Origin: Desulfomonilaceae bacterium
GTDB taxonomy: Bacteria; Desulfobacterota; Desulfomonilia; Desulfomonilales; Desulfomonilaceae
DNA: 41,820 nucleotides
Assembly: GCA_031082285.1 (NCBI GenBank)
Contig: JAVHLK010000038.1
Coordinates: 1-41,820 of the forward strand
Direction of reading: 5' to 3'
Shown here in pieces: positions 20,587 through 36,614 of the stretch (the first letter of the stretch is position 1; the number at the start of each line of letters is the position of its first letter). The translations under genes and the position numbers were made by a program. The notes under the pieces were generated by a model that searched no databases, had not been told where the DNA came from, and saw only the letters and a list, made by a program, of their open reading frames with translations.

Positions 20587-21258
20587 TTCTTCCAGTTGAG
20601 TTCTCCCAATTCACGCACACCGTCATTCAAGGTTTCGACTGGTCAAGATGCTCGGTCGAGAACTTTGCGGCATGGGACAAGATTTCTTGAAATGCACTCT
20701 ATGCACGCGATGTCTGTTGTTCTTCGCTGGTTTTTCCCTGGAAGAGCTACTGCTTGCCTGTTTTCAGGCCGGCATGTGGGAACTATCCTCTAGAACCGTG
20801 CCAACAGGGTTGCTATGGAACTTTTCCAGAAGCACCTGTGACGAACACTTAATTTTCCCATATTTCACTGTACTTCATCGACCACACACGGTCAAGCAGA
20901 ATGCTCCCTCACAATCCTCGGTCAACCTTCAGGAGATCGCCTTGGGCATCTTCAGTGTACGAGATGCCGGATAGTTTGACGGACGTGTGACCGAGGATTG
21001 TGGAGCCGCAATTGCTTGACAGCGAGAGGCCTCGGACCTAGAATCCGTCTTAACTGTGAGGGCTGCCGCTCATATCGAAGTTGGGGCTCCAAAGGACAAT
21101 CAACCGCGAAATTCGGTGCCCGTCGTCACGTACTTAGCGGCTTGAAGTCCGGCGTACACGGAGTAGACCTTGCAGCGCGCGGATCCTGATATATTCGCAC
21201 GCACTCGCGTCGGCAACCGGTGCTCGCCGATCGGCACGTCCCCTGGGGAGAGCGTCTT
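20587..21258. other. 672-base intergenic region between the regulator and the LOG gene
   Basis: I see no convincing gene here; the only longer frame (20648-20974) has no ribosome site or family resemblance. The region separates divergent genes. It holds a strong plus-strand promoter at 21016-21044. A -24-like TGGCACG on the minus strand (near 20797-20803) lacks a matching -12 element. The regulator's own promoter was not identified. Confidence 0.6.
21016..21044 (+). promoter_or_regulatory. Consensus sigma-70 promoter
   Basis: TTGACA (21016-21021), a 17-base spacer and TAGAAT (21039-21044) give a near-perfect match. The predicted start near 21051 leaves an unusually long leader of about 208 bases before the LOG gene, unless a small RNA or unseen peptide lies between. 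Confidence 0.75.
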
Positions 21259-31419: not shown

Positions 31420-32841
31420 ATGGTGTTACGAATCAGTCACGTCAATCCGATCTTCAACATTGCATGGATCGTCCTGCTCTCGTTTGCCTTTGCGGCGAGC
31501 ATACAGGCCAAAGATACGGGCAACGGAGCGAACGCGGAATCCGAATTCTTCACCGGAAGCCACCTTCTGTCCCAGGACAAGCTGTCGGAGGCGATCAAGT
31601 CACTGGAAAGAGCCGTCCAACTCGAACCGGACAATGCCAAGTACAGACAGGTTCTCGCCGTGGCGTACAACAACTTCGGTCTGAAGAGCGCGGGTGAAGG
31701 AAGGGTGAAGGAAGGAGTTGACGCCCTTGCAAAAGCGATCGAACTTGCTCCCGAAGACGGAGACATACGGTCGAATTTCGTGCTGGCGGCCCAACGTGCC
31801 TCGTCGTTGCCGCCCGACAAGATGAGTATCACGGACAAGGTCGCGGTTCTCCGCAAGGTGATGGATGTCGATCCCGAAAACGCTCAGGCCCGGAAGGCTC
31901 TGGCCGCTCAATTGAACAACCTGGGAGTGGCCCAAGGCAAGAGGGGCGACTTTGAGAACGAGGCGGCCCATGTGGAGGAAGCGTCCGGGCTCGATCCCAA
32001 CAACCAAGAGATACGGGCGAACCTTGCCACGGCATACTACAATCTGGCCATTAAGAAGGGCAAGTCCGGTGCAGTCGCCGAAGAGGTGGAACTCCTGAAA
32101 AAAGCCGTACAACTGTCCCCAAAGGATAAGATGATCAAGGAGCGAATGGCTGGAGCGCTTTCCGACCTTGCCGTGGTGAAGGGCAAGCAGGGAGACGTGA
32201 AGGCCCAGATTGCGCTGTTGCAGGAATCCCTGAAAATCATCCCCCACGATCGGATCACCAAGAAGAACCTTGCCGCGGCATATAATAATCTGGCCGTCTC
32301 GGAGAACGGTCTCATGGAGACAGCGGAACGCATTGCCGGGTTGAAGGAGTCTCTCAAGCTTGATCCCAAGAACAGTGCCACCATTGGAAACTTGTGCAAT
32401 CTGTTGGCACGAGAAGCCGTAAAAGAGGCGAGGAACGGTTCCACGGACAAGGCGATCAAGATGCTGAAGGAGGCTGAAAAACTGGATCCCAACAACACCG
32501 TAGTGAAGAAGAATCTTGCCGCCCTGTACCACAACGAGGCCTTGAAGCAGGGAGAGCAGGGGAATCACTCGGCGGAAATCAAGTTGCTCAGGACGGCTCT
32601 TCAGCACGACGCTTCCAACACGGAGATCAAGTCGGATCTCGCACTGGCCTACAATGACTACGCAGTGAGTCTCGGAAACAAAGGCGAGGATGAACGAGAA
32701 CTGGATTACCTGACCAAAGCGGCGCAGCTGTATCCCGACCACAAGGTCATCCGAGAGAACTTGGCCAGAGCAAAGGAAAAGGTCGCTCGCAAAGCTCGGA
32801 AGAGCACAAAAGAGAAAAAGGGGAACCCTCCTGCCGGATGA
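31420..32841 (+). CDS. Exported tetratricopeptide-repeat protein
   Basis: The 473 residues begin with a signal peptide (about 1-30, ending SIQA). At least eight degenerate TPR-like units follow, each about 45-50 residues long. They are visible as repeated AYNNLA/LYHNEA helices followed by KGKxGD and ...LLKKAVQLSP or LKESLKLDP. Between units is a second motif of the form DxxIKxNLAxAYNNLA, so the array alternates two helix pairs per period. The C-terminus is Lys-rich (ARKSTKEKKG). TPR arrays bind protein partners; none is obvious here. The start codon at 31420 was taken because the signal peptide begins there. It stands alone in front of the primase gene, with a separate promoter for that gene between them. 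Confidence 0.85.
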   Translation: MVLRISHVNPIFNIAWIVLLSFAFAASIQAKDTGNGANAESEFFTGSHLLSQDKLSEAIKSLERAVQLEPDNAKYRQVLAVAYNNFGLKSAGEGRVKEGVDALAKAIELAPEDGDIRSNFVLAAQRASSLPPDKMSITDKVAVLRKVMDVDPENAQARKALAAQLNNLGVAQGKRGDFENEAAHVEEASGLDPNNQEIRANLATAYYNLAIKKGKSGAVAEEVELLKKAVQLSPKDKMIKERMAGALSDLAVVKGKQGDVKAQIALLQESLKIIPHDRITKKNLAAAYNNLAVSENGLMETAERIAGLKESLKLDPKNSATIGNLCNLLAREAVKEARNGSTDKAIKMLKEAEKLDPNNTVVKKNLAALYHNEALKQGEQGNHSAEIKLLRTALQHDASNTEIKSDLALAYNDYAVSLGNKGEDERELDYLTKAAQLYPDHKVIRENLARAKEKVARKARKSTKEKKGNPPAG

Positions 32842-32902: not shown

Positions 32903-32931
32903 TTGACATTCGGGACGACCAATAATAGAAT
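32903..32931 (+). promoter_or_regulatory. Consensus sigma-70 promoter of the primase-like gene
   Basis: TTGACA (32903-32908), a 17-base spacer and TAGAAT (32926-32931). The hexamers and spacer length are identical to those at 21016-21044. The predicted start near 32938 gives a 39-base leader. It implies constitutive, independent expression of the gene that follows. Confidence 0.8.
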
Positions 32932-32976: not shown

Positions 32977-34131
32977 ATGATCGCAAAGTTCACGCGCAAA
33001 GATTTTCTCGATGCCATCTTTGCCCAATACTACAAGGAACACAGGGGGTTCATTTTAGTCAAGAGCTTCAAACGCGGGGACCCGAAGATGAGTACCCGGT
33101 ATTTCCCCAATATAGAGATCCTGGCCAAGGAACACTATGGGGAAGAACGCGACGTCTATTTTGGAATCTGTCCGCGCGAGCGAATGAAGGCGGAGAAGGA
33201 ACATGTCCACTATGTGCTCGCATTGTGGGCGGATTTGGACATCGGCTCCGAGGGACATGAGGACAAGAAGATTTTCTTCGAAGGCCCGCAGCAAGCGGCT
33301 AAAGCCATCAGGAGTTTTCCGAGAGCGCCGTCCATAATCGTCGAGTCGGGCAGGGGCGCACATTTGTACTGGCTCTTGAAGGAAGTGACCGAGGTGACGG
33401 ACCCGGAGAGGATCGAGAAGCTTCTCGGGAACATCAACGAGCATCTCCAATGCGACACGGATCCCGGCCTGGAAACCGTATTACGGCTCCCGGAAACCGT
33501 CAACACGAAGATTCCGGGAAAACCGGTGAATTGCGACGTGAAATTCATCAACCCGAACTTCCGTTACAGCCTTCAGGATTTCGAGAATCTCGGACAGCGA
33601 ATCGTGGCTCCTCCTCCCCGTGTGGCGGCCGCGGCCCCGGCGTTGCATAGACAGGTTCCTCAGGAGGCGCCTACGTTCACCGACGACGCCGACGACGTAC
33701 CCGTTTCGGGTGCCGTTTCCGCTCAGAACGTCGACGATTCATTGGTACTGGATGAAACAATTATTGACGAACTCATCGATGACATTTCCATGACCGGCAG
33801 TATGGTAGCCGATGTTCCGACGACTGCCGGAGACACGCCGGTTGTCTCGCAGGGTGCGTCACGGGAATCGACGTTCGTCGAACCCTCATATCCCGCGGGG
33901 GCTTCCACCGCCGGCCGGCGCCGTCCCACGGCCGTGGCCGCGTCCAGCAGTGTTCTGGAACAATTGTCGTCATCCCGAACCGAAGTTGAGATCTCCCTCG
34001 TAGGTTCCGAGACCACCATAAACGGGGTTCTCATCTGGAACGAGAACGGTCTCATCGGCGTAGAATCGGGCGAGAATCTCTATACCATTCCCTTAACAAG
34101 TATCTCCTTCATTAAGAGTGCGGCTTCATAA
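32977..34131 (+). CDS. Stand-alone AEP primase/PrimPol-like protein with C-terminal Sm/Hfq-like domain
   Basis: The N-terminal part (about 1-205) shows the archaeo-eukaryotic primase pattern found in phage and plasmid RepB/PrimPol proteins. Motif I is ALWADLD (D86, D88), motif II is VESGRGAHLYW (H129), and motif III/template segment is DTDPGLETVLRLPETVNTK (D160, D162, R170, K178). These residues would bind metal and nucleotide. A Pro/Ala/Ser/Asp-rich linker (about 210-330) follows. The last 50 residues (about 335-381), VEISLVGSETTINGVLIWNE then GLIGVES and YTIPLTSISFIK, have the beta pattern and Gly spacing of Sm/Hfq folds. No helicase domain, replication origin or phage gene is adjacent. The fusion suggests primer or RNA-linked activity. 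Family placement of both ends is by eye. Confidence 0.75.
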   Translation: MIAKFTRKDFLDAIFAQYYKEHRGFILVKSFKRGDPKMSTRYFPNIEILAKEHYGEERDVYFGICPRERMKAEKEHVHYVLALWADLDIGSEGHEDKKIFFEGPQQAAKAIRSFPRAPSIIVESGRGAHLYWLLKEVTEVTDPERIEKLLGNINEHLQCDTDPGLETVLRLPETVNTKIPGKPVNCDVKFINPNFRYSLQDFENLGQRIVAPPPRVAAAAPALHRQVPQEAPTFTDDADDVPVSGAVSAQNVDDSLVLDETIIDELIDDISMTGSMVADVPTTAGDTPVVSQGASRESTFVEPSYPAGASTAGRRRPTAVAASSSVLEQLSSSRTEVEISLVGSETTINGVLIWNENGLIGVESGENLYTIPLTSISFIKSAAS

Positions 34132-34363
34132 GACAAGTCGAGTATCATCCGGGGAGGGGGAGCGCAGTGTATCCGGAAAGGTCCCGGAAATGGGTTCGCT
34201 ACGCTTTCGCTTCGATGCTTTGGGTTTGCCGTGAGGTGATTTCCGTCGGGGTCGCTCCAGGGTGGAGGATGTATCGGTCACAGAGGATGCAGGACCGTTC
34301 GCAGCCGGTATGCGGGGCCGTGAGTTCTTCCGGTACGGGTCATGAAGGATGAGCCTAAAAGGA

Positions 34364-34456
34364 TGGCGGAGAGAGAGGGATTCGAACCCTCGGTAAGGCT
34401 CAACACCCTACACTCGCTTAGCAGGCGAGCACCTTCAGCCGCTCGGTCATCTCTCC
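34364..34456 (-). tRNA. tRNA-Ser, anticodon GCU
   Basis: The minus strand folds as a class II tRNA of 93 nt. The acceptor stem is GGAGAGA/TCTCTCC, the discriminator G and CCA encoded. The D-arm holds GACCGAGCGGCTGAAGG. The anticodon stem CTCGC/GCGAG has loop CTGCTAA, giving GCT (reads AGC/AGU). A long variable arm and T-arm GGTTCGAATCC follow. It lies just downstream of the helicase gene. No integrase is next to it. Confidence 0.95.
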
Positions 34457-34517: not shown

Positions 34518-36449
34518 CTACGTCCCGGGTGGAACGCGAAAGAAATCCCGCGGAACCTCCTCGAAGAACCGTGACACGTTCGTGGAAACCTGACCGATTC
34601 TCCTGTCAAAAAAAGTCCTTGGGGCGAGAACTACCAAGTTGTGCATTGCCCGAGTTGTGGCCACATAGACGAGCCGTCGCTCCTCTTCGATGTCCTCGAC
34701 CGAGTCTTCCGCTCTGGGGGACGGGATGCGTCCCTCCGTGGCCCACAGAAGAATCACGGTGTGCCACTCCAGCCCCTTTGAGGAATGAATTGTGGAGAGC
34801 ACCAGCGAGTCATGAGGACTTTCCGATCTTGGTCCGTCATCGTCGGGCGGTTCCAGCGCCATGTCGTTGAGAAAGCGATTCAGACTCCGGTAAGTGACCG
34901 TAAGGTTCGCCAGCTGCTCCAAATCGCGCATCCGTTTGGGATAGTTGTCGAACTTTTCCTTGAGAAAAGGAGCGTAATACTCGTTGATCATTGCCACTTT
35001 GTCCGCGATGGGTCCCTGGTTGTCTCTCAACCCGTGAATCAGCGAGAGCAGCTTCCGAACGTCGCCGGCGTATTTTCGACCGGGCGGCGCGAGATGCGAC
35101 GTGTCGTCGGGAACGCCGTTGGTCGCGATTTGGGTCGCCAGACTCATCGCGGTTTTTGCTCCAATGCCCGGGAGCAACCTCAGAATCCGGGACCAGCTCA
35201 GTCGGTCCTTGTAATTGTTGATGACCTTCAAGTGGGCGAGGACGTCCTTAATGTGGAGGCTTTCCAGGAACTTCATCCCGCCGTACTTGACGTAGGGGAT
35301 TCCGTTGCGTGCGAGTTCGCCTTCAAGATCGAACGAATGAAATCCCGCTCGAAAGAGCACCGCGATATCCCTGAGCGGGATGCCGTGCCCGTTGAGTTCC
35401 TTGACGCACTGAATCACGAATCGGCTCTGGTCTCTCTCCGTCATGGGTCTGGCCGCCATGGGCTTCGGGCCGTCTTCCTTCCGGGTAAACAGCTTCTTGG
35501 GATACCCCACGGACGCGCGACGGATGATGCTGTTGGTAACCTTCAAGATCTGATCCGTGCTGCGGTAGTTCTCTTCGAGCTTCACGATCTTCGCACCGGC
35601 AAAGAGGTTGGGAAACTCCATGATGTTGGTGAAGTCCGCGCCCCTGAAGGAGTAGATGCTCTGAGAATCGTCTCCGACCACCATCACATTATCGTGCGTC
35701 GATGCCAGCAACCGCACGATACGCGCCTGGAGCCGGTTGGTGTCCTGGTATTCGTCCACCAGAACGTATTGCCACCGGTTTGAGACTTCTTCGCGCACGT
35801 GCTCGTGTTCCTCCAACAAACGGATGGTGTTCACCAGCAGGTCGTCGTAGTCCATGAGGTTGTTGGTTTTCTTATGCTCTTCGTACAGGACACGGACTCG
35901 CTCCACATCCGCGGCATGTTCCGCGAGGTGGGGGTACCGGACTGAGAGTATCTCGGCCACGGTACCCCCGCCGCCGACGGAACGGCTCAGGACTTCGGCA
36001 ATGGTTCGGGTCTTGGGGAAGCGCTTGAGATCCAGAGGCTGGGGAGAAAGGTTCTTCCTGGCCAAATCGACGACTTCGTGAGTGTCGGCCTGATCCATGA
36101 TGGAGAATGAGGAGTCGTAACCCAACAGAGGAGCGTATCTCCGCAGCAACAGGTTGCCTATGGAATGGAAGGTTCCCCCGGCAACGCGTGACGCGCGGGA
36201 ATCGAGGAGCGCAGCCGCTCTCGAGAGCATTTCCTCCGCGGCTTTCCTCGTGAAGGTCAGCAGCAGTATGGACGCGGGGTCTATTCCCTGTTCGATGAGC
36301 CAGGCAACCCGGTAAACCACGGTGCGGGTCTTTCCGGAACCGGCTCCGGCTATGACCAGGATAGGGCCGCCGGGTGCCGTGACCGCCTCGGCCTGCGAGG
36401 GGTTGAGCTCGGCTTCGTAATCAATGGAGTGGACGTGTTGCTTTTTCAT
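34518..36449 (-). CDS. UvrD/PcrA/Rep-family superfamily 1 DNA helicase
   Basis: The 643-residue protein (ATG 36449, AGGAAG upstream; 45 extra in-frame codons lack support) carries the SF1A helicase motifs: NPSQAEAV (Q motif), Walker A GAGSGKT, LLTFTRKAAEEM, Walker B DEYQDTN, GDDSQSIYSFRGA, LEENYRST, TIHSSKGLEWHTVIL and RRLVYVATTRA. It unwinds DNA 3' to 5' in repair or replication restart. The C-terminus lacks the long tail of UvrD and PcrA, so I cannot tell UvrD from Rep or PcrA. It is monocistronic or cotranscribed with tRNA-Ser. The primase-like gene is on the other strand, ending nearby. Confidence 0.92.
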   Translation of the reverse strand: MKKQHVHSIDYEAELNPSQAEAVTAPGGPILVIAGAGSGKTRTVVYRVAWLIEQGIDPASILLLTFTRKAAEEMLSRAAALLDSRASRVAGGTFHSIGNLLLRRYAPLLGYDSSFSIMDQADTHEVVDLARKNLSPQPLDLKRFPKTRTIAEVLSRSVGGGGTVAEILSVRYPHLAEHAADVERVRVLYEEHKKTNNLMDYDDLLVNTIRLLEEHEHVREEVSNRWQYVLVDEYQDTNRLQARIVRLLASTHDNVMVVGDDSQSIYSFRGADFTNIMEFPNLFAGAKIVKLEENYRSTDQILKVTNSIIRRASVGYPKKLFTRKEDGPKPMAARPMTERDQSRFVIQCVKELNGHGIPLRDIAVLFRAGFHSFDLEGELARNGIPYVKYGGMKFLESLHIKDVLAHLKVINNYKDRLSWSRILRLLPGIGAKTAMSLATQIATNGVPDDTSHLAPPGRKYAGDVRKLLSLIHGLRDNQGPIADKVAMINEYYAPFLKEKFDNYPKRMRDLEQLANLTVTYRSLNRFLNDMALEPPDDDGPRSESPHDSLVLSTIHSSKGLEWHTVILLWATEGRIPSPRAEDSVEDIEEERRLVYVATTRAMHNLVVLAPRTFFDRRIGQVSTNVSRFFEEVPRDFFRVPPGT

Positions 36450-36523
36450 CGGGTGCTTCCTGTTAAGATTAATCATTTTAGCCTGTTTTTGGGAAGAGAA
36501 AAAGTGTCTTCGCAAGAAAAGCG

Positions 36524-36552
36524 TGGCCAAAAGCCGTCGTTTGTGATATGCT
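36524..36552 (+). promoter_or_regulatory. Possible sigma-70 promoter of the DUF2225 gene
   Basis: TGGCCA (36524-36529) and TATGCT (36547-36552) are 17 bases apart; each matches four of six consensus bases. The predicted leader is about 56 bases before GTG 36615. Confidence 0.35.
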
Positions 36553-36614
36553 GTCTCCGTCGCTGGATTCGCGGGGAGGTACAATTCGTTTGAGAGAGTC
36601 TTAAGGAGGATTGT

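Follow-up and report, generated by a model that had tools for sequence, protein, structure and literature searches.

Gene A, a resident chromosomal gene of a Desulfomonilaceae bacterium, encodes an archaeo-eukaryotic primase (AEP) domain of the PrimPol/RepB' type, which is joined by a disordered linker to a C-terminal Hfq-like domain. This architecture is secure. The AEP and Hfq folds are individually well known; the new part is their fusion, of which no description was found in the literature and databases searched (most subscription journals were outside this scope). The initial annotation had likewise known of no such link. A literature search on the primases of Desulfomonile yielded nothing relevant. 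In bacteria, most AEP primases serve phage or plasmid replication, and the small number that act for the cell itself (LigD, CAPP) have been informative. A primase complex built from a resident PrimPol with Hfq-type tail and pseudo-primase paralogues would be of a new design, and would add to the case, so far known from cyanobacteria, in which an Hfq fold does its work without binding RNA.

Sequence searches and structure prediction

The window is the whole stretch of DNA that was analysed (41,820 nucleotides) and is part of a 5.6 Mb genome assembly (G000). The following features were assigned (window coordinates, strand):

31420..32841, +, TPR protein, conserved upstream neighbour (synteny across relatives)
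32903..32931, +, near-consensus sigma-70 promoter TTGACA-N17-TAGAAT (11/12), starting 74 nt 5' of the ATG
32977..34131, +, whole gene A, ATG start, 384 aa; AEP domain, disordered linker, Hfq-like domain
32977..33594, +, AEP (PrimPol/RepB'-type) catalytic domain, residues 1-206 (PHROG, AlphaFold2, fold searches)
33226..33240, +, motif I WADLD, metal ligands D86 and D88 (8/8 A orthologues and all outgroup primases)
33346..33363, +, motif II SGRGAH (S124, R126, H129), nucleotide triphosphate binding (alignment to S-2L)
33454..33456, +, D160, third catalytic carboxylate, equivalent to S-2L D146 (alignment to 6zp9)
33484..33510, +, motif III RLPETVNTK (R170, N176, K178; orthologue alignment)
33595..33933, +, low-complexity linker, residues 207-319 (pLDDT mostly 38-67)
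33733..33792, +, conserved acidic helix motif DDSLVLDETIIDELIDDISM in the linker, residues 253-272 (orthologue alignment)
33934..34131, +, Hfq-like domain, residues 320-384, N-terminal helix and five strands (Pfam, AlphaFold2, fold search, hhalign)
34364..34456, -, tRNA-Ser(GCT), conserved at the locus with or without gene A (synteny)
34518..36584, -, UvrD-type SF1 helicase in convergent orientation, kept whether or not gene A is there (synteny)

Profile-based searches were needed because searches with the single window protein against Pfam, NCBIfam and PDB sequences gave no matches (Pfam none at E<=1). For structure prediction, AlphaFold2 was supplied with a 35-sequence alignment of the window protein and fetched loci. 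Mean pLDDT was 80, with values mostly >90 over both the AEP and the Hfq-like domain.

The motifs on which the gene had originally been singled out are all present in the ORF (WADLD at residues 84-88, SGRGAH at 124-129, RLPETVNTK at 170-178), and the low-complexity linker described between the two domains corresponds to residues 207-319, which are mostly disordered in the model. The checks proposed in the initial annotation came out as follows. Fold prediction and structural searches returned an AEP fold for the N-terminal and an Hfq/Sm fold for the C-terminal part. The HMM search succeeded for the AEP domain by way of PHROG primase profiles; for the tail it gave a PF21979 match below the cut-off and none to PF17209. 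In the homologue survey the fusion was kept in 8/8 full orthologues and in one fragment at a contig edge.

AEP domain and active site residues

PHROG phage DNA polymerase/primase profiles matched the N-terminal half of protein A (6.8e-9 and 5.1e-7). The Pfam family RepB_primase (PF16793) was matched by 6/35 aligned members, which are more distant relatives (best 4.3e-7); the window protein did not reach the curated cut-off of this family. Residues 4-207 were superimposed on S-2L PrimPol (6zp9) with Z 17.9 over 171 residues (rmsd 2.7) and on RepB' (3h20) with Z 15.1 (VIA-align). S-2L PrimPol and RepB' (3h20/3h25) thus have the AEP fold in common with gene A, at sequence identities of 13% and 11%, respectively. 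Both serve phage or plasmid replication and have no Hfq-like domain, whereas gene A is chromosomal and stands in stable synteny.

The roles of the active-site residues of S-2L PrimPol have been described (PMC8065100), and its catalytic residue set equals that of gene A. E85/D87 correspond to D86/D88, T112/K115/H118 to S124/R126/H129, D146 to D160 and R157 to R170. All mapped active-site residues except D160 are conserved in 8/8 full A orthologues, with D86, D88, R126 and H129 and the pattern S124-G-R126-G-x-H129 invariant. D160 is conserved in the window gene and 7/8 A orthologues. Judged by predicted fold and by motifs I, II and III, gene A is a member of the AEP superfamily. Because the metal- and nucleotide-binding residues of characterised PrimPols are retained, its AEP domain is probably catalytically active.

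Identity of the AEP domain to orthologues in other genera was 83-89% for 5/7 and 71-89% across all. Neighbouring products at the locus had 47-56% (TPR), 64-73% (ABC ATPase) and 63-69% (UvrD), and the AEP domain was the most conserved among the sequences tested there. The most divergent A orthologue (L008, Kiruna MAG, G009) retains the Hfq-like tail but no longer has D160, the linker motif or a near-consensus promoter, so that activity of A may not be universal.

AEP motifs I-III of gene A are also those of the PrimPol-PV1 supergroup of related phage and plasmid primases (Kazlauskas et al. 2018, PMC5862659). Members of this supergroup carry PriCT or helicase modules, whereas ORF A has no helicase domain and no PriCT was seen in it (a highly diverged PriCT could escape the scan). 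CAPP (7p9j/7nqf) has the AEP fold (Foldseek E 2.5e-4) and a cellular, non-replicative setting in common with gene A, but its C-terminal module is different, and no Cas-type gene was found among the neighbours of gene A that were scanned.

Hfq-like C-terminal domain and linker

Residues 317-384 matched dozens of Hfq chains with Z 10-11, mostly at rmsd 1.2-2.5 over 61-68 residues. PF21979 (Hfq_1, 'Hfq related'), the family to which Hfq of the cyanobacterial type belongs (7e-25 for 3HFO), was matched by the C-terminal 60 aa of 6/9 orthologues at E about 0.005-0.007 (best 0.0048). The tail reached 17.3 bits against PF21979, below the Pfam cut-off of 27, and had no match to PF17209. Using hhalign, the tail was aligned with 3HFO/3HFN over 54 columns with a score reached by 0/200 column shuffles. 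Against the canonical Hfqs of the class the alignment was weak (probability 5) and its score was reached by 2/200 shuffles. The C-terminal profile retrieved no Hfq from PDB sequences, nor did the tail of one orthologue. The proposed Sm/Hfq fold of the C terminus is nevertheless supported by the model, by the fold matches and by the PF21979 profile hits.

Cyanobacterial Hfq (Ssr3341, 3HFO; Asl2047, 3HFN; PF21979) has the fold of the gene A tail (Z 10.6) and is its best sequence match, and both are devoid of the RNA-binding residues of Hfq. The cyanobacterial proteins are free-standing, have very low RNA affinity or are reported as non-binding, and partner with PilB in motility (PMC10989914), whereas the tail of gene A forms the C-terminal part of a primase. 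The genome also has a canonical hfq, a separate gene beside miaA (L123) with intact YKHA and a PF17209 match at 1.2e-22. Its product and the tail have the V-E-[IV]-x-L core and the N-terminal helix pattern in common, but the tail lacks both YKHA and a PF17209 match. The YKHA segment of Hfq falls in YTIPLTSIS (residues 369-377), where Lys/His occur in 0/9 orthologues, and the KH signature is missing from the tail whatever the register. Variable residues take the place of the distal-face Tyr of Hfq, which is not retained in any of the nine orthologues.

The tail had been put forward as an RNA-binding module. With the Y-K-H signature replaced, the distal Tyr lost and a non-RNA-binding cyanobacterial Hfq as the nearest Pfam type, this claim was not upheld. 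Net charge was dropped as an argument against RNA binding; the canonical Hfq of the genome is likewise slightly acidic. Because of the cyanobacterial-type Pfam match, the loss of KH and the presence of a helix at the same place in the paralogues B and C, the Hfq-like tail would serve as an oligomerisation or docking platform rather than as an RNA-binding chaperone.

Within the linker, the motif DDSLVLDETIIDELIDDISM is present in 7/8 full A orthologues and in L019. It is similar to DDETLVLDESLVEVVED of the B protein L009, which forms the start of the B-type tail and precedes the tail helix. This similarity suggests that the tail was swapped between helix and Hfq domain in the history of the family.

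Paralogues and phylogeny

Most A-positive genomes additionally hold the paralogues B and C (AEP domain identity about 50%). D86 is replaced in 13/13 B/C paralogues (Gly in 12, Ala in 1) and D160 is kept in 0/13, that is, two of three catalytic carboxylates are gone in every one; the outgroup primases have D86 in all and D160 in most cases. The B/C pseudo-active sites still contain S124/G125/G127/H129 and the R170/N176 region. In the B-type model the AEP fold, also recognised by fold matching, is followed by a terminal single helix (288-328) at the place of the Hfq-like tail of A. B and C paralogues are located at unrelated chromosomal loci with metabolic neighbours.

In the family tree, A, B and C were grouped against the outgroup primases (96/99). 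With respect to the branching order of A, B and C, a single B+C clade was not rejected (AU p 0.46), and one single loss of catalysis in B/C is therefore possible from the sequences.

Genomic locus and occurrence within the family

Gene A was found in 9/18 Desulfomonilaceae genomes, as eight full orthologues and one C-terminal fragment. Among 42 genomes of the class, the tail profile matched only A genes. The conserved gene order is ABC transporter - TPR - A - (spmA-spmB) - tRNA-Ser(GCT) - UvrD - DUF2225. In genomes without A (G004, G011, G007) the TPR gene is directly joined to spmA; the tRNA-Ser is kept in G004 and G011, and G004 also has spmB, UvrD and DUF2225. Because sister genera show this intact empty site with TPR adjoining spmA, gene A was, on comparison of the loci, cleanly gained or lost within a housekeeping locus. 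The empty sites of G004 and G011 (L166, L167) are usable for dating the gain of gene A. In the window, 34131-34364 contains no spmA-spmB, which in most relatives stand between A and tRNA-Ser, and spmA was not found anywhere in the genome assembly.

Relatives of the PrimPol-PV1 type are nearly all located on mobile genetic elements (MGEs), often integrated in tRNA genes (PMC5862659). By this location criterion gene A is not part of an integrated or free MGE, its synteny with host genes being fixed. The annotated status as a resident gene is confirmed by this synteny, by the same tRNA-Ser in empty-site genomes, and by phage and plasmid matches that are distant and partial. The neighbourhood had also been described as free of helicase, phage and plasmid genes. 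Among the flanking genes scanned there was indeed none of phage type, but a convergent UvrD-type gene lies ~390 bp downstream, with the tRNA-Ser in between. A functional link between A and UvrD was set aside because UvrD is also at this position in G004, which has no gene A. No repair operon was found around gene A, and an Rfam scan of the window detected only two tRNAs.

Promoter analysis

The promoter ascribed to gene A from the sequence was recovered as TTGACA-17-TAGAAT (11/12) and is conserved in 7/8 A orthologues at nearly equal distance to the start. Most B/C paralogues have the same promoter type, with the site ~70 nt 5' of the start in most family genes. The pattern TTGAC[AT]-N17-TAnA[AG]T was searched for on both strands of family loci totalling 264 kb. 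It gave 16 matches, 14/16 of which lie directly 5' of A, B or C (related genes, not independent samples, so that a binomial figure gives no true probability here). Since the upstream regions of family genes are otherwise diverged, the family promoter is probably under selection. Codon usage of A, B and C showed no mark of high expression. The sole other strict-pattern match within the window is located at 21016-21044 (+).

Proposed function and alternative explanations

Gene A would encode a PrimPol-type primase-polymerase of MGE type that has been domesticated and is resident on the chromosome. A flexible linker of ~110 aa would tether the AEP domain to the Hfq-fold domain, which most likely assembles an Hfq-type ring, probably hexameric, bearing several AEP heads. 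B and C are probably non-catalytic partners or regulators. The likeliest cellular job, weakly suggested by residence behind a near-consensus promoter, would be DNA synthesis for damage tolerance or repair, by repriming or gap filling. The analysis shows the architecture, its conservation, the intact versus broken active sites, the common promoter and the host locus; catalysis by A, ring assembly, this role and cooperation of A, B and C are what we infer. We put the chances of the combined reading, a domesticated active PrimPol on an Hfq-type ring platform with non-catalytic B/C and a task in damage tolerance or gap-filling, at about even. A more specific version, in which catalytic A on a repurposed Hfq ring and dead B/C form a ring-organised PrimPol machine dedicated to DNA synthesis or repair in Desulfomonilaceae, is tentative; here, matching near-consensus promoters precede A and most B/C genes. 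Desulfomonile tiedjei is culturable, which makes the function testable.

A, B and C might all be oligomeric DNA-binding or sensor proteins, with catalysis lost in B/C and dispensable in A. The residues kept in the B/C pseudo-active sites, the common promoter type, a hint that active and dead members are expressed in concert, and the loss of D160 in L008 are compatible with such a scaffold. It is nonetheless unlikely, as 8/8 A orthologues keep D86, D88, R126 and H129 unchanged, in contrast to B/C, which lack D86 and D160, and as no sequence tested at the locus is more conserved than the AEP domain of A. An RNA-linked enzyme, in which the Hfq-like ring binds RNA that then serves the AEP domain as template or primer, starts from a genuine Hfq fold (fold searches) and from the ability of AEPs to use or make RNA. 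The RNA-templated or RNA-primed synthesis envisaged in the initial annotation is unsupported, because the Lys-His signature is absent and the best Pfam match is reported not to bind RNA. Loss of Lys-His and distal Tyr in nine/nine orthologues, and a genome already equipped with canonical miaA-hfq and intact YKHA, render the RNA-linked enzyme improbable.

AEP domains are found in conflict systems (TOTE, CAPP), and the distribution of gene A within the family is patchy, as might be expected of an anti-phage defence component. PADLOC gave no match for A, B or C, and the gene is fixed among housekeeping genes and not in a variable defence island; a defence role has accordingly a small chance. Smaller still is that of a decaying or passenger mobile-element primase, left by a prophage or plasmid beside the tRNA-Ser. 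Similarity of the AEP domain to Caudovirales RepB-type primases, the MGE location of nearly all superfamily relatives, often in tRNA genes (PMC5862659), and the empty site in sister genera would fit such an origin. Against it stand flanking genes that include no phage-type neighbour among those scanned, a constant syntenic position with strong conservation across several genera, the presence of the same tRNA-Ser in empty-site genomes, and diverged paralogues that lie at other, unrelated sites of the chromosome next to metabolic genes.

Related sequences outside the family

When the A profile was run against 395 genomes of the phylum, only the family of the window had the full fusion. Elsewhere the hits were partial and mostly fell in long open frames of about 700-880 codons. 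Partial AEP matches with ~30% identity came from two plasmids and one phage, and the viral contigs searched contained no relative. Two class relatives have ORFs of 974 and 842 codons (L010 and L011 in G031 and G022, respectively) that include an AEP domain related at ~30% identity and are probably MGE primase-helicases. In the Nitrospiraceae MAG SURF_11, a lone B-type pseudo-primase with the family promoter follows an rfaD-like epimerase (L055, 6001-7071). An rfaD-like epimerase is also the neighbour of B in the genome of the window (L025). For the L055 gene, horizontal transfer and a misbinned contig are alternative explanations.
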